Program-made: the position numbers and the translations under genes
The notes under the pieces: generated by a model
The model's database searches: none
Seen by the model: only the letters and a program-made list of their open reading frames with translations
What the model was told of the DNA's origin: nothing
In this document: piece after piece, positions 7,363 through 19,748 of the stretch
Numbering within the stretch: the first letter of the stretch is position 1
How the letters are laid out: every line of letters begins with the position of its first letter
IMG/VR virus record: IMGVR_UViG_3300044993_000263
Span: 1-23,697 of that record
Direction: 5' to 3' (one strand)
From: a virus
Length of the DNA: 23,697 nucleotides

Positions 7363-7800
7363 TTATCCTAATTTAAATAGATCATTACCGAACACTATTG
7401 GTTCACCAAAACTATAATTATACGTAAGCCCATCTGCACATACTATATTTTTATTTACAATATATCTTAATTCCTCATGACCACACAACAACCGTTCTCT
7501 ACACAAGTCTACGTTGTCTTGCATTATGTCTACACCGTATATAGTAGACAATGCTGTAGGAAAGTCAATGCCATTTTCTAATTTTCTTATCAAGATTTCG
7601 CTAAGAAATTGACCATCTCCGCAAGCCGGATCCAAGAAGGTTTTAGTCGGGTCTCTGAATAATTCTTGGGGGAGTTGGTCAAGTATCTCCTGAACGAGCG
7701 GAGTTGGAGTGAAAACTTCTCCCGTTTGTTTCACTCTTAGTTTGTCTCGGTCTACGCCAGACATATAACTACGTTCTCTTAAATGCTTTATATAATTCAT
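7363..7800 (-). CDS. SAM-binding half of a split N6-adenine DNA methyltransferase (145 aa)
   Basis: I place the start at the ATG at 7800 (MNYIKHLRERS), which forms an ATGA overlap with the stop of the 7797-8591 gene; a longer frame begins at 7848. The product holds only the N-terminal half of an Eco57I-like gamma-type adenine methyltransferase: TGEVFTPTPLVQEILD (26-41), motif I FLDPACGDGQFL (55-66) that binds S-adenosylmethionine, the acidic D91 in YGVDIM, and CADGL (121-125). Catalytic motif IV (NPPF) is absent. The protein stops after FKLG, exactly where MKFDVVVGNPPF would be expected to follow. That segment begins the gene just upstream. The two products probably act together or derive from one split gene. 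Confidence 0.82.
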   Translation of the reverse strand: MNYIKHLRERSYMSGVDRDKLRVKQTGEVFTPTPLVQEILDQLPQELFRDPTKTFLDPACGDGQFLSEILIRKLENGIDFPTALSTIYGVDIMQDNVDLCRERLLCGHEELRYIVNKNIVCADGLTYNYSFGEPIVFGNDLFKLG

Positions 7801-8591
7801 TTTATTTGTTCTTCTATATAAGCTATTTCTTCTGTAGTTAAGTTCCATTCAATAGGATATTCAAACCCGGTTTTTATTTGATTAAGGTCAAATTTTTTGA
7901 TATTTGCCGGCATGCCTGCATGGCTGTTGCCCTTCATTTTTGTGGTAAAATACCTAAATGCCTTGTTATTAATAGTAAATAGCTTAAGTTTTTCTGCTTC
8001 TTCTAAAGTGCGGGTAGAGATATATCTAACACATCCCGCTAATAAAGGTTTATCAGTAACAGTATATGACTTTATTGATTCTAACATAGTAAAGGCAAAT
8101 TTAGGCCCATACACTACTTTTCTTGTATCAGTTACATCTGCATATTCTTCCGGGGTCTCTCCATTTAATTTTACCAACACTGTGTTACCGGTAGGCAATA
8201 CCAAATTGGATCTTCTATTTTGCATTAATGAAGAATATTGTGTCTTAACATTAAATTCGTTATTTCCTACTATTTTACAAATAATGGGATCGGCTATCGT
8301 ATATTCACTAATTTTAGGAGAATTCTTGCCTATAAAATAAAGAGTATTATAATTCCAATAATCAATGCTTGTCATGTAGTTTATTAAGTCGATTTGCTTG
8401 TTGAGTTTTGTTAATGTATTGATTACATTCTTGAGAGTGATTAAGGCAACGATGCCGTTTGGTTTACATACCTCAAAAGCTTTAGAGACAAACCTACGAT
8501 ATAAAGTTTTATTTCCTATTGTTCCTGATATGCCTCCTTTTTCTGTCACGCTATTAAATGGAGGATTTCCCACTACTACATCGAATTTCAT
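7797..8591 (-). CDS. Catalytic/target-recognition half of a split adenine DNA methyltransferase (264 aa)
   Basis: The protein begins directly at motif IV: MKFDVVVGNPPF, in which NPPF (9-12) is the catalytic signature of N6-adenine methyltransferases. Typical follow-on elements are present (SKAFEVCKPNGIVALIT, a core strand and helix), then a long region that should recognise the DNA target, and a C-terminal helix (NLTTEEIAYIEEQIK). SAM-binding motif I is missing and lies in the next gene, 7363-7800, giving a permuted gene order. The ATG overlaps the stop of the 8588-9106 gene (ATGA). The first 40 bases are almost identical to DNA at about 9391-9432. Alternatively it is an inactive relic, but the 264-codon frame is intact. 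Confidence 0.8.
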   Translation of the reverse strand: MKFDVVVGNPPFNSVTEKGGISGTIGNKTLYRRFVSKAFEVCKPNGIVALITLKNVINTLTKLNKQIDLINYMTSIDYWNYNTLYFIGKNSPKISEYTIADPIICKIVGNNEFNVKTQYSSLMQNRRSNLVLPTGNTVLVKLNGETPEEYADVTDTRKVVYGPKFAFTMLESIKSYTVTDKPLLAGCVRYISTRTLEEAEKLKLFTINNKAFRYFTTKMKGNSHAGMPANIKKFDLNQIKTGFEYPIEWNLTTEEIAYIEEQIK

Positions 8592-9106
8592 CCCAAATTA
8601 TCTCCCAATCCATAATAGTCGGGTATGCAACGCAATATTTCTTGATATTCAGTATCAGTAATACCAAAATGTTCACAAAGCATCTTGTCATTCCATATTC
8701 GGTCGAATGGAACAATGGGAATGGCCCTCAATTCGCCCATATGATTATTACCGTTAAATTTGTAAATAGAAAGTGCAAAGCGGGCAACGAATGACTTCAA
8801 GTAACTAACAAGACTATCCTTCTCGTAAGTAAAGATAGCAAGACCATAATCATGATTTTTAGATACTGTCCAATAAGAACTTATTGGCGAAATTACTGAA
8901 TAAAAGTCTTGCATTCCCATATGCCCTCTTATCTTTTGAATATAGAATTTTTCCGTATTTAAGTCAGATGTTACTAAATCTTGTAAAGTTCCAAAGTCAT
9001 TACACGCTTTGAGTATCTTCTTTGTTAATGAACCATATATAGTTAAGTCCATTCCGATTTTGTTCACTAGAGATATATCTACGTCGTACGAAGGAGCACT
9101 ACCCAT
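8588..9106 (-). CDS. Target-recognition/C-terminal part of a second, frameshifted methyltransferase (172 aa)
   Basis: The first residues, GSAPSYDVDISLVNKIGMDL, continue the sense of the preceding out-of-frame segment, which ends GKLDKYI. The ORF is therefore the 3' part of a larger methyltransferase rather than a complete protein. It carries no methyltransferase catalytic motif. It does carry the C-terminal pattern seen in this family (IVPFDRIWNDKMLCEHFGIT followed by a hydrophobic helix) and the middle SVISPISSYWTVS, as expected for a recognition domain. Its stop overlaps the next gene (ATGA). The ATG has no strong ribosome site. It could still be made as a separate recognition subunit; more simply it is part of the pseudogene at 9079-9593. 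Confidence 0.6.
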   Translation of the reverse strand: MGSAPSYDVDISLVNKIGMDLTIYGSLTKKILKACNDFGTLQDLVTSDLNTEKFYIQKIRGHMGMQDFYSVISPISSYWTVSKNHDYGLAIFTYEKDSLVSYLKSFVARFALSIYKFNGNNHMGELRAIPIVPFDRIWNDKMLCEHFGITDTEYQEILRCIPDYYGLGDNLG

Positions 9107-14191: not shown

Positions 14192-15540
14192 GACCCAAAC
14201 TCAAAAAATGTTTCTACCTCAGTATTTTTTTCTAATGGAATAAAAGATTCATCTTTAGTAAGATAAGTATTTTGATCAGTATATATAATATTAAATTTAT
14301 GACGATTACTTAAAACACTTACAATATCTTCTTGTGACAAGAAATCCCTATTTAATTTTTCAACAAAGTCACTATATTTAATTGTATGTTCATTGTTAAT
14401 TTTAGCAACTGATGAAAAACTTTGTTTGCTTTTGAAATTATCAATAAACATTTTCCATTTATTTTTACATTCTTTATCTAGCAAATTGACGTAATTGGAC
14501 CCTGAATCATTTATGGGCTGATGATATAAATTTGTGATTATTTTAGCTGCATTTTTCTTGTTGGTAATAACATAGTACCGATTATCAAAATTGTCTGCCC
14601 AATCTTGTGTATCCAATACTACACATGGCATTTGTGACAAACATTCATAAAATGCAAAGGGATAATTTTCGCTATAAGAAGGATTAAAATGAACTTTGCA
14701 ACTCTGTATAAATGATACTTTTTCTTGACCAGTTAATTCTATTCCTATTTTATAATTAGTTATGTTACGCTTTTTAAACTCTGATTCAAATTTCTTTGCT
14801 CCATTTTTGTTAGTCAAAACTCTAGCGGGAAGATCTGTTTCTTGTATAACTTTTAAAAATGCTTCGGGGTTTTTTCTAGGCTCATATCTTCCTATATACA
14901 ACACGCCCTCTCTAGGGCCATAATTAAATTCTAATAAACCCCGTTCGGACATTGGCATGGGTAAAACTTCAACATTATTACAGCCATATGATATTAAATT
15001 ATTTTTATTTCTCTCTGATTGCGTTCCTACAATTATACCATCAAATTCTAAATGCTTATTATAAAACACATGATATGAATTTAAAAATACGTCATGATTT
15101 TTTTGCTCTCTTACAACCATTCTTGGTTGATGAGTATAAAATACTATTGGTATATAGTCAGTTAAATCCAAACTATACATTGCAGACATTGATTCTTGTG
15201 TATTGCATACAACCAAATCATAAAGATTATACTTGAAAGCCAACATTGCACTTCTACGAAAATTTACTATTTGTTCAAAATTAATACAATCAGAAAATGA
15301 ATAAATTTTATTATGTATGTCATATGGTATAGTTATTTCAGGATAAATCAAATTTGCACCCAAATTCTCAATGTCTTTGGAAAATTTATGCATTGGCTTT
15401 TTGTCTAGCACAATATCTACTTTCCAATTAAGCATTGAGGCCATTTCAGTGAAACTTTTTGCAAAAGAACCAAGACCCCCATGAGGAATTAAATGTTGGC
15501 TACTTATAAAAAACAAAACTCTTTTTTTATAAGTTTTCAT
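14188..15540 (-). CDS. Glycosyltransferase, GT-B fold, GT4-like (450 aa)
   Basis: The N-terminal Rossmann half has VLFFISSQHLIPHGGLGSFA with the Gly-rich GGLG (21-24) seen in GT4-like enzymes. The C-terminal half opens with GVLYIGRYEPRKNPE (212-226) and holds the donor-binding E-x7-E, E291 and E299, in YSENYPFAFYECLSQMP. The last 130 or so residues are a less conserved extension. It transfers an activated sugar to an unknown acceptor. The following gene encodes a GalE-like epimerase that may make its donor, and queE ends directly before it with no spacing. Possible acceptors are modified DNA bases, a virion protein or host surface material. Confidence 0.88.
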   Translation of the reverse strand: MKTYKKRVLFFISSQHLIPHGGLGSFAKSFTEMASMLNWKVDIVLDKKPMHKFSKDIENLGANLIYPEITIPYDIHNKIYSFSDCINFEQIVNFRRSAMLAFKYNLYDLVVCNTQESMSAMYSLDLTDYIPIVFYTHQPRMVVREQKNHDVFLNSYHVFYNKHLEFDGIIVGTQSERNKNNLISYGCNNVEVLPMPMSERGLLEFNYGPREGVLYIGRYEPRKNPEAFLKVIQETDLPARVLTNKNGAKKFESEFKKRNITNYKIGIELTGQEKVSFIQSCKVHFNPSYSENYPFAFYECLSQMPCVVLDTQDWADNFDNRYYVITNKKNAAKIITNLYHQPINDSGSNYVNLLDKECKNKWKMFIDNFKSKQSFSSVAKINNEHTIKYSDFVEKLNRDFLSQEDIVSVLSNRHKFNIIYTDQNTYLTKDESFIPLEKNTEVETFFEFGS

Positions 15541-16338
15541 TTAAGTTCCCCAAGCATTCCCAAATAAAGGTAAGTGCAATCTATCACTATAACGGATACC
15601 GTTCTTTAGCGCTATTTCTGCTACTTTGCGATTATTAAGTTTATACACCTCTTCAACACCCCCTACTGGCATAAAATAAATTGGCCCTTTAAAACCGGCG
15701 TCACGATATTCTTTTATCACTTCAAACGCTTCATTAGCATCATCTTCTGTTGCAATAACAAATTTAAGATAAGTATAACCAACTTTCTCATAAAATGCTA
15801 TTATTTCGGGTTTAATAGCATGTTCTTTTTTTTCACCAGAACAACTTAGTTTGGGACTAACTGAAAAAGTAACTTCGCGTTTAAACCCTAAATTTGAGGT
15901 AGAAGAAGACCATTCTTTTAAATATTCTGCTAATACGGATATAAGAGGCTGTGTTCCGTTAGTTTCAAAAGTTATTTCCTTAAGTCCAGCCATTTTGGGA
16001 TGATTTAATAAATTAGGATAAACCTTTTGCCATCCTAAAAGTGGTTCACCCCCTGTAATAACCAAATGTTCATCTCTCCATTCATTGAATGGAAGCAAAT
16101 CCATGATTTCATTAACAATAGTATCAATATCTTTAAAGGGAGATAAATGCTTAAAACGAGGATCCCAAGAGGCGTAACTGTCGCAACCTGTTTTAACTAA
16201 CGGTAGCTGATCATAACTATTATATTTGTTAACATCAATATTAAATCTTTCTTGTGAAAGCTCACCTTTTTTCATTCCAAATCCGCTACATGTAAAATTA
16301 CACCCGAAAGTTCTTAAAAATATACTGGGAACTCCCAT
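15541..16338 (-). CDS. queE: 7-carboxy-7-deazaguanine synthase QueE-like radical SAM enzyme
   Basis: QueE converts 6-carboxytetrahydropterin to 7-carboxy-7-deazaguanine using an iron-sulfur cluster and SAM. The frame from MGVPSIFLRTFGCNFTCSGF carries C13 and C17 of the CxxxC pair and, after a 34-residue insert, C52 in GCDSYASWDPRF; canonical QueE has CxxxCxxCD. GGEP (96-99), the SAM-binding motif, follows, then ETNGTQPL and SVSPKLSCSGE. The true start is probably an ATG at 16417: bases upstream encode IQGEGRY in this frame, the expected QueE N-terminus, but a 16-base homopolymer at 16362-16377 throws the ATG out of frame. The internal Met start given here is a minimum. A GAAGG eight bases before that ATG might allow internal initiation. 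Confidence 0.88.
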   Translation of the reverse strand: MGVPSIFLRTFGCNFTCSGFGMKKGELSQERFNIDVNKYNSYDQLPLVKTGCDSYASWDPRFKHLSPFKDIDTIVNEIMDLLPFNEWRDEHLVITGGEPLLGWQKVYPNLLNHPKMAGLKEITFETNGTQPLISVLAEYLKEWSSSTSNLGFKREVTFSVSPKLSCSGEKKEHAIKPEIIAFYEKVGYTYLKFVIATEDDANEAFEVIKEYRDAGFKGPIYFMPVGGVEEVYKLNNRKVAEIALKNGIRYSDRLHLPLFGNAWGT

Positions 16339-16417
16339 GTAACGGCCTTCACCCTGGATTGAAAAAAAAAAAAAAAAGTTCTGAAACCTTGATCCGGTTC
16401 AGTTCATTACTATTCAT
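16339..16417 (-). pseudogene. queE: Out-of-frame 5' end of queE
   Basis: An ATG at 16417 preceded by AAGGAAATTAAAA starts MNSNELNRIKVSEL, the expected N-terminal strand of a phage QueE, then runs into 16 T. Reading through gives repeated Phe, then NPG and a stop. In the other frame, just after the T run, the codons read IQGEGRYMGVPS, the canonical QueE substrate-contact segment joined to the downstream ORF. The two halves would be in frame with 15 or 18 T. Confidence 0.8.
16362..16377 (-). repeat. Homopolymer tract, 16 T on the coding strand
   Basis: Sixteen consecutive A on the plus strand (T on the coding strand) inside the 5' end of queE. The tract sets the reading frame; length changes by replication or transcription slippage would switch queE on or off. 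Sequencing or amplification error at such a tract is also common. Confidence 0.95.
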
Positions 16418-16432
16418 TTTTAATTTCCTTTT

Positions 16433-17725
16433 TTATTTTTTTAAAGAACTAGCTTTAATAAATTTTTCTATATCTATGATTTCATACTCATTTTTTACTA
16501 GTTCCCATTCATATATGTTAATATTTTTTTCTTTTCCTGTCAAGATATTTTTTGCTCTAAACATATATGAATGTGAACCCAAACTAAGATGTATATTTGG
16601 ATCAAACTTATCTTTTTCTATTTGTTGTCTTATTCCAGTATTTTTATCTATTACATTAATCTTTCCTTTATTTGGACCGGTATATCTATCTCGGTTATTA
16701 TTCCATTCTTCTTCTGTAAGTTGCACATACTTGCCAGTTAACGTATCATAAACTGTTCTTAAACCCTGCGTGTGACCCGAATAATTGCCGTTATTAAATT
16801 CTTGTTTAGTTATTAATTTTGACTTGCCATCATTATCTTTTACTAAAACCTTTCCTTTTGTGGATGTGATATATCTTTTCGGATCGTCTAAATATTCTTT
16901 TCTATCAATAATTCTTGTTTGTTTTGAAATTGTATCATAAACTTTCACAGTATTTGCATTACAATGAATATATTTTCCTGTTCGGTATTCTTCTTTACTT
17001 ACCCATACTGTTTCACCAGTATCATCAATACATTTTATTTTATGTTCTATAAGTTGTTTATATTTTTTGTATCCCGCTTCTTTGTTTAACTTTTTTGCTT
17101 CAGATTTAGTAATTTTTATTACTTCATTTGTTTCAACATTTATGAATCTATAAGTAGATTTGAACGGATTAATTTCGCCCCCGCCAATTCCTGGACCTAC
17201 ATTAGGTATATATCTGTCTTTATTATTGTAGTAATCTTCTTTGAAAATTGAAACATGTTTTTTAGATTGTTTGTCATATACTACCACACGACCGGAGGTA
17301 TGAAATTTTATATCATCTTGTTGCTTATATCTTTGTTTTGACATAACAATTACATTACCAGAATCATCCTTAAGATATACTTTATCTACGTTTTGTGTTT
17401 TAAACCAATTATAAAAAGAAGATTTTAATGTTTCATACACTCTACTAGGTATTGGTTTAAATCCTTCTTTATTGGTATTTTTATTACACATTTGTAAGAA
17501 AGCACTTTCTAAAGAACGATTCTCTGGATAGGCTTTCCACAACAGCCAGTGTGCTAAATGATGTTCTCTTAATGTAAGAGTTATTAGATTGTCTGGTTCA
17601 TCTGAACCATTAAGACATTTGGGAATTATATGATGTTTTTCAGTATAACTGGTAAGATTCCTATTACTATTTTTGATAGAAGTTATAAATTTATCATATC
17701 TGTTTTTATAATGATAATTTATCAT
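16433..17725 (-). CDS. HNH homing endonuclease with tandem C-terminal repeats (430 aa)
   Basis: Residues 29-67 form the HNH nuclease core: EKHHIIPKCLNGSDEPDN, then LITLTLREHHLAHWLLWKAYP, with H31/H32, N47 and H55/H56/H59 as candidate catalytic and metal residues. From about residue 113 to the end lie some nine degenerate repeats of about 33 residues, each like (K)V.D..(T/S)G....I(S/T)KEE(Y/F)..(G/N)(K/R)Y. They probably bind DNA along an extended target. A free-standing gene between queE and the phosphoribosyltransferase gene is the classic position of a mobile homing endonuclease that cuts a neighbouring gene in rival phages. Expression appears restricted to late times by a hairpin at 17724-17766 with a late promoter in its loop. 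Confidence 0.88.
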   Translation of the reverse strand: MINYHYKNRYDKFITSIKNSNRNLTSYTEKHHIIPKCLNGSDEPDNLITLTLREHHLAHWLLWKAYPENRSLESAFLQMCNKNTNKEGFKPIPSRVYETLKSSFYNWFKTQNVDKVYLKDDSGNVIVMSKQRYKQQDDIKFHTSGRVVVYDKQSKKHVSIFKEDYYNNKDRYIPNVGPGIGGGEINPFKSTYRFINVETNEVIKITKSEAKKLNKEAGYKKYKQLIEHKIKCIDDTGETVWVSKEEYRTGKYIHCNANTVKVYDTISKQTRIIDRKEYLDDPKRYITSTKGKVLVKDNDGKSKLITKQEFNNGNYSGHTQGLRTVYDTLTGKYVQLTEEEWNNNRDRYTGPNKGKINVIDKNTGIRQQIEKDKFDPNIHLSLGSHSYMFRAKNILTGKEKNINIYEWELVKNEYEIIDIEKFIKASSLKK

Positions 17726-17766
17726 TTTCTTCCTTTATATTGAATTATTTATAAAAGGAAGAAAAT
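17724..17766 (-). promoter_or_regulatory. RBS-sequestering hairpin of the homing endonuclease gene
   Basis: A 13-bp perfect inverted repeat: 17754-17766 (ATTTTCTTCCTTT on the minus strand) pairs with 17724-17736 (AAAGGAAGAAAAT). The second arm contains the Shine-Dalgarno AAGGAAG and the first two bases of the ATG. Transcripts reading through from upstream would have a closed ribosome site. The loop of 17 bases contains TATAAATA. Confidence 0.8.
17746..17753 (-). promoter_or_regulatory. T4-type late promoter TATAAATA inside the hairpin loop
   Basis: TATAAATA matches the T4 late consensus exactly. Initiation about 6-7 bases downstream gives an mRNA starting near 17740, without the first arm of the hairpin, so the ribosome site AAGGAAG is free. 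This mirrors the known arrangement for late expression of T4 gene e, soc and I-TevI. Confidence 0.78.
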
Positions 17767-17838
17767 AACAAAATTATCTCTGTTATATTACAATTTTTCT
17801 TTCAAGGAATATATTAAACAAAATAAGATATTTAAATT

Positions 17839-18417
17839 TTATCCAAAATTTACACCTGAATTACAAGAATGATCTTTCCACCATTCTTCCCAAGGAAATA
17901 TTGCCCATTGAGGAATTTCTTCTTTATTAATACCTTCTGAATAAAAATCTATTGGAAAGTTGCAAGCTTCGTTGTAAACAAGAGAAGCAAATTTAACATT
18001 ATTATGCCAAACACTATTCCAAGCTTCTTTTTCATCAGGAAAACAACAATTCATCCAATCATTCTTTATCCAATCAAATGTCTCACCTTGGTCCACAATA
18101 TCATCTATAATTAGAATATTTTTTCTTTTAGAAATATCCCATCTGGTATAAACAATTTGTCTTTCTTTTGAATTGATATAGCCAAATGCTTCTTTTGCCA
18201 TCCAACATTTGCTTTCGCCAAAACTCTCATCTTTAAGACTTATTTTTAAAGTTTCCATTGGAATGTCAAAATAATGACTAATATATAAAGCAGGAATTAA
18301 CCCCCCTCTAGTTATTCCTACTACATAATCTGGTAGCCAATTGGAAAGTATGATGGCTCTAATTATATCATGAACCATTCCATCTATATCTTTATCACTA
18401 TAATAAACGTCTATCAT
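17839..18417 (-). CDS. Purine-type phosphoribosyltransferase (192 aa)
   Basis: The PRPP-binding loop is ILIIDDIVDQGETF (101-114 from the chosen start), close to the type I consensus with two Asp and a DxGxT turn; here the turn is DQGET. An upstream GITRGGLIPALYIS (34-47) is the PPi-loop, typical of xanthine/guanine and related phosphoribosyltransferases. I choose the ATG at 18417 (MIDVYYSDKDIDGM) because AAAGGAAATAAC precedes it; the frame from 18450 would only translate the ribosome-site sequence. The exact base is uncertain. With folE, guaC and queD/E nearby it may recycle guanine or a 7-deazaguanine base, or feed GTP for FolE; this is inference. Confidence 0.82.
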   Translation of the reverse strand: MIDVYYSDKDIDGMVHDIIRAIILSNWLPDYVVGITRGGLIPALYISHYFDIPMETLKISLKDESFGESKCWMAKEAFGYINSKERQIVYTRWDISKRKNILIIDDIVDQGETFDWIKNDWMNCCFPDEKEAWNSVWHNNVKFASLVYNEACNFPIDFYSEGINKEEIPQWAIFPWEEWWKDHSCNSGVNFG

Positions 18418-18456
18418 GTTATTTCCTTTGCCCCCCTGATTTTTTTTCATTAATAG

Positions 18457-18954
18457 TTATCCCAACAAATTCTCGTTCCACTCTCTATGACCCTCTCTAA
18501 AAGCCATATTACTTTGTGTTTCTCTTACTTCAACTCTGTAACACCAAAGTCTATCTGCTTCACCTTTTCCCCAATGGTCAGGAATATATACTCCATTTAC
18601 ATATCGATAAAGCATATCCGCAATGGCTTCACACCCTGTTGCAGGAACAATTGTCAATTTTGCTAATTTTTTTTCCTGGAGCAATTTAAATGTTTCTAAT
18701 TCAGGATCATCTTCACTTACCAATAATGTATGATCAAACTGTTCTTCAAGAATAGCCTTTAAATCTCTTAAACCACCATAATCAGCACACCAATTTCTTG
18801 CGTCTAACGTGTCTGCGCCAAAATAAAATTTAAAACTAAAACTATAGCCATGAATTAAATTGCAATGACTGTCTGCTCTCCATTGACGATATGCGCAAGG
18901 AAAAGCATCATGATATTCTTTAGTTGAAGTATACTTATAAGTTACAGGCAACAT
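18457..18954 (-). CDS. queD: QueD-like 6-carboxytetrahydropterin synthase (165 aa)
   Basis: Converts dihydroneopterin triphosphate, the FolE product, to 6-carboxytetrahydropterin. Family features: SHCNLIHGYSFSFKF (29-43), where C31 fits the catalytic Cys and H35 a zinc ligand; DYGGLRDLKAILEE (58-71); FDHTLL (73-78) with the catalytic His; VPATGCEAIADML (103-115); and VEVRET (141-146) with the substrate-binding Glu. The usual HGH zinc pair is HGY here (Y37), so a third ligand must come from elsewhere, perhaps C20 or H15. Length is above the roughly 120 aa of E. coli QueD, in line with a separate phage/proteobacterial branch. It stands before the phosphoribosyltransferase gene and after a TATAAATA late promoter. 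Confidence 0.87.
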   Translation of the reverse strand: MLPVTYKYTSTKEYHDAFPCAYRQWRADSHCNLIHGYSFSFKFYFGADTLDARNWCADYGGLRDLKAILEEQFDHTLLVSEDDPELETFKLLQEKKLAKLTIVPATGCEAIADMLYRYVNGVYIPDHWGKGEADRLWCYRVEVRETQSNMAFREGHREWNENLLG

Positions 18955-18970
18955 TAATAATTCCTCTATT

Positions 18971-18978
18971 TATTTATA
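18971..18978 (-). promoter_or_regulatory. T4-type late promoter TATAAATA before queD
   Basis: TATAAATA on the minus strand 17 bases before the queD ATG; initiation would leave a leader of about 10 bases beginning at or near the GAGGAA ribosome site. Short, but it fits late-promoter geometry. Confidence 0.55.
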
Positions 18979-19001
18979 CAATAATAGTATAATATTACTT
19001 T

Positions 19002-19020
19002 ATTATACACGATTATACAC
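19002..19020 (-). repeat. Two GTGTATAAT copies with 10-base period
   Basis: GTGTATAAT occurs at 19012-19020 and 19002-19010 on the minus strand. Each contains TATAAT, a perfect -10 hexamer, but no good -35 lies at 16-18 bases. It may be a regulatory pair or chance in AT-rich spacer. Confidence 0.35.
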
Positions 19021-19040
19021 AGTAGTAATACAACTTTATT

Positions 19041-19748
19041 TTACTCTTCTATAAACATAGAATTAAAATTGGATATATTTGGAGAAACAGTCTCTCCCAA
19101 ATAATCTTCATCTTTTTCAAGCCTATCTTTACACGGTTCTATCCAATTAATTCTAGTTTCTTTGTTAATATCATTTTTTAGCCAAACTAGCCAACAATAA
19201 GCTGTAGCAGTAGCTAAATTTTTTTCAACTTTCCCCTTACACATGCCAACTCTTTCTACAAATTGAAGCAAATAAGAGGGAGGGTTTTCTTTAAACAACT
19301 CATAATATCTATCTTTACTTTCAATAAAAGCCAATCTGACAATTACAGCCACACCCACTTTACTAGTTGGCAATGCTTTTTGCACAAACTCTTTTGCTAA
19401 AACAAAAGGTGGATTAGTAATAGTAAAGTCTACTTCAGAAAAATTTTCATCCGTAATATAATTCTTTACAGGAAAACCATAACCATAGTCATGAATATCT
19501 GAACCTTCTACAGATTTAAAATATTCAGTCAAAGGTCTTACCATATAACCTCGGTTAGCAGCCGGCTCTCTTACGCTCATATTGCCAATATCAATATTTT
19601 TAGATTTTAGCCATTCGCATAATGCTCTAGTGGCCCAAGGGGGTGTGGGGAAATCATCCAAACTAATTTTTTTAGGCTCAAATCTTCTCTGAACTACTGC
19701 CGTGGATCTATTTGGTTTTTTCTTTGTTTTTTCTTTGTTATTAGTCAT
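19041..19748 (-). CDS. Adenine-specific DNA methyltransferase-like protein (235 aa)
   Basis: A class I SAM-dependent fold in the gamma-like order. DDFPTPPWATRALCEWL (31-47) opens the domain as in many phage adenine methyltransferases; VREPAANRGYMVRPL (59-73) occupies the motif I position; GSDIHDYGYG (82-91) fits motif II; and TITNPPFVLAKEFVQ (109-123) has the NPPF catalytic motif IV. Motif I is unusual: EPAANRGYM instead of DPaCGxG, yet the Gly and the acidic lead are kept. The first 25 residues are Lys/Arg-rich and disordered. The gene overlaps the Smr-like gene by 4 bases (ATGA). It may be an active orphan modification enzyme. Confidence 0.85.
   Translation of the reverse strand: MTNNKEKTKKKPNRSTAVVQRRFEPKKISLDDFPTPPWATRALCEWLKSKNIDIGNMSVREPAANRGYMVRPLTEYFKSVEGSDIHDYGYGFPVKNYITDENFSEVDFTITNPPFVLAKEFVQKALPTSKVGVAVIVRLAFIESKDRYYELFKENPPSYLLQFVERVGMCKGKVEKNLATATAYCWLVWLKNDINKETRINWIEPCKDRLEKDEDYLGETVSPNISNFNSMFIEE

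Follow-up and report, generated by a model that had tools for sequence, protein, structure and literature searches.

Analysis of a 23,697-base virus record from IMG/VR, whose whole length is referred to here as the window, showed that an inverted repeat at 17724-17766 covers the start of a free-standing HNH homing endonuclease gene (HEG). The arrangement is very probably a translational timing device of the T4 type. The endonuclease gene and the frame-broken queE-like gene downstream of it may also form one mobile cassette, a more tentative reading. Long genes in the window lie on the minus strand, and the features of the region are listed in Table 1.

Table 1. Positions of the features around the endonuclease gene and the queE-like gene in the window
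Feature	Position	Strand	Remarks
HNH homing endonuclease gene (HEG)	16433..17725	-	Free-standing, 430 aa; PHROG 655; five full-length relatives
Upstream arm of RBS-masking hairpin	17754..17766	-	Perfect 13-bp repeat; present only in read-through RNA
TATAAATA, T4-type late promoter motif in loop	17746..17753	-	Same place in 6/6 full-length members (TATAAATA or CTAAATA)
Downstream arm	17724..17736	-	Contains Shine-Dalgarno GGAAG (17733-17729) and the A and T of ATG (17725-17723)
Sigma-70-like promoter TTGACA-17-TAACAT in last codons of HEG	16515..16543	-	10/12 matches; proposed early queE promoter
queE-like gene	15541..16417	-	PHROG 2076, E 4.9e-46; start codon at 16417; QGEGRY core from 16356; frame broken at T run
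Small hairpin in queE 5' coding region	16381..16402	-	Ends 3 nt before T run
T run in queE	16362..16377	-	16 T on coding strand, at the ELFYS codons of HEG-free queE; queE out of frame

The window endonuclease matched PHROG 655, 'homing endonuclease', at E 1.4e-32, and Pfam HNH at 19.1 bits, under the curated cut-off of 21.4. It consists of an HNH nuclease domain and a distinct C-terminal part, and its gene lies outside an intron, as judged by reading the flanks. The neighbouring genes run in the same direction, with queD-like and phosphoribosyltransferase genes upstream and the queE-like gene downstream. Elsewhere in the window (7363-9106, minus strand), several adjacent frames resemble pieces of DNA methyltransferases by eye and are perhaps one frameshift-broken gene. 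Although 889 cultured phage records matched the endonuclease in part, several of them annotated MobE or MobD, none covered 80% of it, and the collection thus contains no known isolate carrying the entire unit. Near-DNA comparison of the locus with cultured phages returned nothing. In IMG/VR, five full-length relatives were found, L009 (= L018), L010 (= L019), L011 (= L020), L012 (= L021) and L022, with 46-57% identity in the best segment. A further 75 loci matched mainly the N-terminal nuclease domain, and inspection by eye of the upstream regions of 74 of these (L079 is without a start) revealed no consistent device.

A preliminary description of the region had pointed to a perfect 13-bp inverted repeat closing the Shine-Dalgarno sequence and start codon, with TATAAATA in its loop. 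Both elements were confirmed at the positions given. The read-through RNA folded at -19.1 kcal/mol (z -4.33), a value equalled by 0 of 200 shuffles. No second perfect inverted repeat with arms of 13 bp or more and 3-30 nt between them occurs in the window, and such repeats numbered 0.017 on average in 60 dinucleotide shuffles of the whole window. TATAAATA alone, an AT-rich motif, was not enriched across the window (10 found, 7.0 expected). The evidence therefore lies in the combination and its conservation, and not in the octamer. With T4 late promoter spacing, RNA would be expected to start near 17739-17740. The queD-like gene has a second TATAAATA 24 nt ahead of its start, at 18971-18978 (minus strand), and its RBS is without strong pairing.

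Immediately ahead of the start codon, all five relatives had TATAAATA or CTAAATA flanked by complementary arms whose sequence was their own, and the RBS fell inside an arm in all six full-length members. The six hairpins had z scores of -4.5 to -6.3, with 0 or 1 of 1000 shuffles equally good. Gaps in a MAFFT alignment of the six devices prevented the counting of pairs by column, and an arm-swap permutation test was used instead. Arms paired with their own partners gave a mean of -16.25 kcal/mol, compared with -12.29 kcal/mol for swapped arms, and 3 of the 720 arrangements, the true one included, were equally good. This supports covariation, with pairing kept by compensatory change, among six members that are few and share ancestry. 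Co-conservation of the arms, whose absence the preliminary description had named among its refuting outcomes, was thus found in relatives: the late-type motif lies within a hairpin of differing arms in 6/6.

Other hairpins occur in related contigs. A pattern search for window-like arms around TATAAATA turned up 5 contigs in which the gene's RBS lay outside the hairpin, and these were rejected as a different device. In L098-L102, a structural gene (495-499 aa in complete copies) is preceded by a terminator-like hairpin and then by TATAAATA flanked by complementary arms; the RBS of this gene is outside the hairpin. Two contigs with an endonuclease remnant, L013 and L016, also retain the upstream arm of the hairpin, truncated immediately ahead of the late motif.

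Autorepression of I-TevI at an operator overlapping its late promoter has been published (PMC2988022). By the same logic, the hairpin could be a DNA site, for instance an operator through which the endonuclease shuts down its own late promoter, instead of an RNA timing device. This seems very improbable. Relatives have different arms that still pair, a pattern closer to RNA pairing than to a single protein-binding site, and the position of the RBS within an arm in all six speaks against it as well. The two roles could nevertheless coexist.

For the RNA timing device, the fold, its conservation and its covariation are as observed above, and from them we infer the start site and the timing. In early and middle read-through RNA from upstream genes, the hairpin would hide the Shine-Dalgarno sequence and start codon, leaving the endonuclease untranslated. 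Late RNA would start in the loop, past the upstream arm, and the endonuclease would become translatable. In the five members counted, the RBS was unpaired at 0.05-0.29 in read-through RNA and at 0.54-0.94 in late RNA; as its open frame extends further upstream, L022 was kept outside this set. T4 genes used as yardsticks behaved as expected in this measure, going from read-through to late values of 0.31 to 0.87 for I-TevII, 0.08 to 0.56 for gene 49 and 0.41 to 0.66 for soc.

The preliminary description had further suggested that the phage has T4-like late transcription. Late motifs were counted 8-60 nt upstream of genes in the window and the contigs of the five relatives (427 kb). For TATAAATA this gave 15 genes, where the remaining sequence predicts about 1.0, and for CTAAATA 11 genes, where it predicts about 2.1. 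Members of the HEG family made up 5 of these 26, and the RBS in their read-through RNA was unpaired at 0.05-0.29, compared with 0.24-0.74 in the other 21. Contig G005 carries genes for a gp55-like late sigma factor (E 7.9e-27) together with gp23 (E 3.4e-82) and a T4-type portal (E 6.6e-109). The sigma factor was matched in this one of 8 records, the others being possibly fragments, and the gp45 clamp in 0/8 and 0/6 records, where controls were likewise unmatched by these searches, so that the zeros carry no weight. Late-type promoters are likely in the group, as the motif enrichment and G005 suggest; for the window phage itself we infer late promoter use.

The same contigs held further late motifs near endonuclease or small genes. 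An HNH gene in G005 (L174:2921) has TATAAATA and lacks the hairpin, indicating that the hairpin is not general to endonuclease genes in these contigs. At L179:1863-1927 (G004, also the contig of L012), CTAAATA lies in a hairpin of -22.7 kcal/mol that closes a start codon. The gene, from 1913, is SegE-like GIY-YIG (Pfam SegE_GIY-YIG, E 1.7e-4), an endonuclease unrelated to that of L012. At L185:3458-3517 (G001), TATAAATA lies inside a moderately stable hairpin before the start of a 194-aa gene with no Pfam match, which starts MALPSSGSISLNSLQTEYGG, like a small gene of the window at 1361-1567.

The HEG was found immediately upstream of queE in 6/6 full-length cases, and the gene on its other side varies. 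In the linked queE genes, a T run takes the place of the tyrosine codon and the bases around it, an element that the preliminary description does not mention. The runs contain 12-20 T beside a full-length HEG (window 16, L009 15, L010 14, L011 15, L012 12, L022 20) and 11-13 T beside remnants. A search for queE gave 51 loci, of which 47 were examined, excluding L128, L148, L152 and L154, which begin at or inside queE. In all 47, which are HEG-free, the longest T run before the QGEGR core was 2-6, the sequence mostly reading ELFYSIQGEGRY.

The link was then followed from either end. A tract-driven scan of all IMG/VR viral contigs identified 16 contigs. These include the five with a full-length HEG, five near-identical ones with an HEG remnant (L013-L017), contigs with a C-terminal remnant only (L156, L167, L159, L166, L168), and L161, whose sequence ends 133 nt before the queE core and is identical there to L159. 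The tract was accompanied by the HEG or its remnant in 15/16 contigs, L161 being too short. A tract-blind scan for the C-terminal codons of the HEG returned 32 contigs, from which 17 short unrelated frames without a tblastn match were dropped. All 15 genuine contigs had the tract, and all were among the 16. The association of tract and HEG is complete in both directions in IMG/VR, as far as the patterns reach. A scan of bacterial genomes for the tract with the queE core gave no genuine case; its single match, in Priestia, was rejected as not queE.

At L150:2068-2965, a different HNH gene lies directly before a tract-free queE that groups with those of L022, L010 and L159. The identity of its product is 51%, over residues 5-65 only. 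More than one endonuclease thus occupies the site before queE, and the tract accompanies a single family. The 5' side of queE is a recurrent landing place for endonucleases.

A small hairpin ends 1-3 nt before the tract in 8/8 distinct linked lineages. These hairpins fold at -3.1 to -7.6 kcal/mol (mean -5.2), whereas 27 distinct unlinked 5' ends, taken from 28 of the 47 loci, average -0.44. Compared with randomised synonymous codons, linked queE is over-structured (eight p values of 0.0025-0.107, Fisher 4e-9), with the p values overstating independence since the lineages share ancestry. The L010 hairpin was not significant alone (p 0.107), and 0/27 unlinked queE fell below 0.05. Hairpins became weaker when their halves were swapped between lineages, and 4 of 40320 arrangements matched the true one, itself included.

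Through the tract, queE is out of frame in 6/8 lineages; beyond it, the frame is intact. Because dN/dS was saturated (dS above 1.8 or not computable), conservation was assessed as identity by codon position, which in five linked queE pairs was 0.69-0.76, 0.76-0.85 and 0.39-0.45 for positions 1, 2 and 3, respectively. The remainder of queE after the tract is under purifying selection. A queE tree was built from 37 rows, 6 with the full gene, 3 with a remnant and 28 with neither. Linked queE did not form one clade in it, and the full-gene label forces at least 4 changes on supported branches; L012 sits on a long branch and its placement is unsure. This polyphyly indicates repeated gain or loss, with tract and hairpin following.

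The last codons of the HEG (L-T to NIYEW) spell TTGACA, 17 nt, and TAATAT or TAACAT. This putative embedded promoter occurs in the window, L010, L011, L022 and both short-remnant lineages (L156, L159); it is weaker in L009 (9/12 matches) and absent in L012. The leucine at the promoter site is TTG in all five full-length members having leucine there, and TTG makes up 0.12-0.26 of their leucine codons. A general sigma-70 scan found 21 sites, compared with 21.4 in shuffles, and the case for the promoter therefore rests on codon conservation and not on the scan. HEG remnants retain this 3' end. Several T4 endonucleases carry embedded promoters for downstream genes (PMC2988022), and the one described here would serve queE early.

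The HEG, together with a hairpin and poly-T insert in its proposed target queE, may constitute one mobile cassette in which the insert erases the cut site and slippage restores QueE, although we regard this as slightly more doubtful than probable. Within the same reading, the HEG would be late-timed by its hairpin and costly to delete through the embedded queE promoter. queE is proposed as the target from its position only. The enzyme would cut or nick queE near the ELFYS codons in phages without the unit. The T-run allele would be uncleaved, making its carriers immune, and would be copied along with the HEG by co-conversion. On transcription, the nascent hairpin and the T run would cause RNA polymerase slippage and bring part of the queE mRNA back in frame; the frame of the tract would become irrelevant, with QueE still made. 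The embedded promoter would supply queE early, so that loss of the HEG 3' end would be penalised. The steps of cleavage with immunity, co-conversion and slippage are held jointly, less firmly than the timing, and with belief falling somewhat short of doubt. queE belongs to the 7-deazaguanine pathway, which phages use for DNA protection (PMC6884629). The mainly open-access literature searched, at the level of titles and abstract openings, contained no account of a homing endonuclease tied to a slippery tract, or of homing into queE.

Other explanations for the queE tract were weighed. The hairpin and T run could be an intrinsic terminator that ends the HEG transcript, shielding or silencing queE. 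In every linked lineage, a hairpin stands 1-3 nt ahead of a T run, as it would in a terminator, and terminators and slippage signals resemble each other, as in the stem-loop slippage architecture described in PMC5009743. However, the stems are weak at the energies given above, an automatic scan of 15400-19200 reports no terminator, and the element sits within the conserved frame of queE, which opens ahead of it and stays under purifying selection afterwards. Termination as the sole role is unlikely, while partial termination may occur together with slippage. A phase-variable switch, turning queE on and off by replication slippage and unrelated to homing, appears less plausible still, and we consider it improbable. 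Homopolymer switches are common in bacteria (PMC2831843), and tract length does vary, even where contigs are almost identical (T12 and T13 in L012 and L013-L017), but such a switch would leave unexplained both the complete link to one endonuclease family and the covarying queE hairpin. That the run is an assembly artefact is scarcely credible: homopolymers are error-prone, all data are metagenome assemblies and single-base lengths of T14-T20 may be wrong, but the tract is present in 16 IMG/VR contigs and the window, six contigs from two lineages share the same out-of-frame T11, 47/47 unlinked queE loci examined are free of it, and in each of the six contigs (427 kb in total) it is the only homopolymer of at least 11.

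The timing hairpin has clear precedents. An RBS-masking hairpin relieved by a late promoter controls I-TevI, with similar arrangements at I-TevII, I-TevIII, segB and Aeh1 mobE, and at the further genes soc and e (PMC2988022); the logic for e and the endonucleases is also told in PMC3014915. The preliminary description had cited e, soc and I-TevI. It had also proposed that the device recurs with unrelated endonucleases. That point is already in print, as I-TevIII and Aeh1 mobE are HNH enzymes and I-TevI, I-TevII and segB are GIY-YIG (PMC2988022). The window device is a further member of a known timing arrangement and not a new principle. Aeh1 mobE (Gibb and Edgell 2007, 2009, via PMC2988022 and PMC3014915) is similar in being a free-standing HNH gene with an RBS-masking hairpin that its late promoter, by its position, leaves out of late RNA. 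It belongs to another endonuclease family, its target is a ribonucleotide reductase gene where queE is proposed here, and the window unit is known from sequence only. The T4 genes I-TevI, I-TevII, I-TevIII, segB, e and soc share the logic of late promoter and RBS-masking hairpin, and I-TevII, gene 49 and soc gave the same numbers as the window family in the RBS measure; the T4 set differs in comprising intron-encoded genes, other endonuclease folds or non-endonucleases. The window family extends this T4 principle to uncultured phages, and its covariation indicates that the pairing itself is kept.

For the proposed cassette, the closest comparison is T4 mobA with the gene 60 bypass, for which the primary paper is reportedly Bonocora et al. 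2011. In both, an HNH endonuclease lies beside a frame-breaking insert in a target gene or proposed target gene. Gene 60 is still decoded (PMC5009743), as queE would be, with protection and slippage putative here. The gene 60 insert may derive from a degenerate intron that protected against the nuclease (PMC5009743). Endonuclease and altered queE allele co-occur in 15/16 and 15/15 contigs. Gene 60 has a 50-nt gap crossed by ribosome bypass (PMC5009743), whereas queE has a hairpin and T run for which RNA polymerase slippage is proposed; as the queE insert is a homopolymer and not a 50-nt gap, the unit is compared with mobA/gene 60 and not classed there. Runs of 9 A or T slip efficiently, as in Thermus dnaX, and a nascent stem-loop enables transcriptional slippage in a Roseiflexus IS element (PMC5009743). 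Linked queE resembles these in having a potentially slippery A/T run and, as in Roseiflexus, a hairpin beside it, here directly upstream in the nascent RNA. It differs in having 11-20 T, against T5C5 and T9 in those cases, and in lying in an HEG-linked phage gene. If correct, the proposal would give homing endonucleases with a recoded protective insert a second example, working by a different mechanism. As a transcriptional counterpart of mobA/gene 60, it would allow long T runs, immunity at the target site and slippage by RNA polymerase to be examined together.
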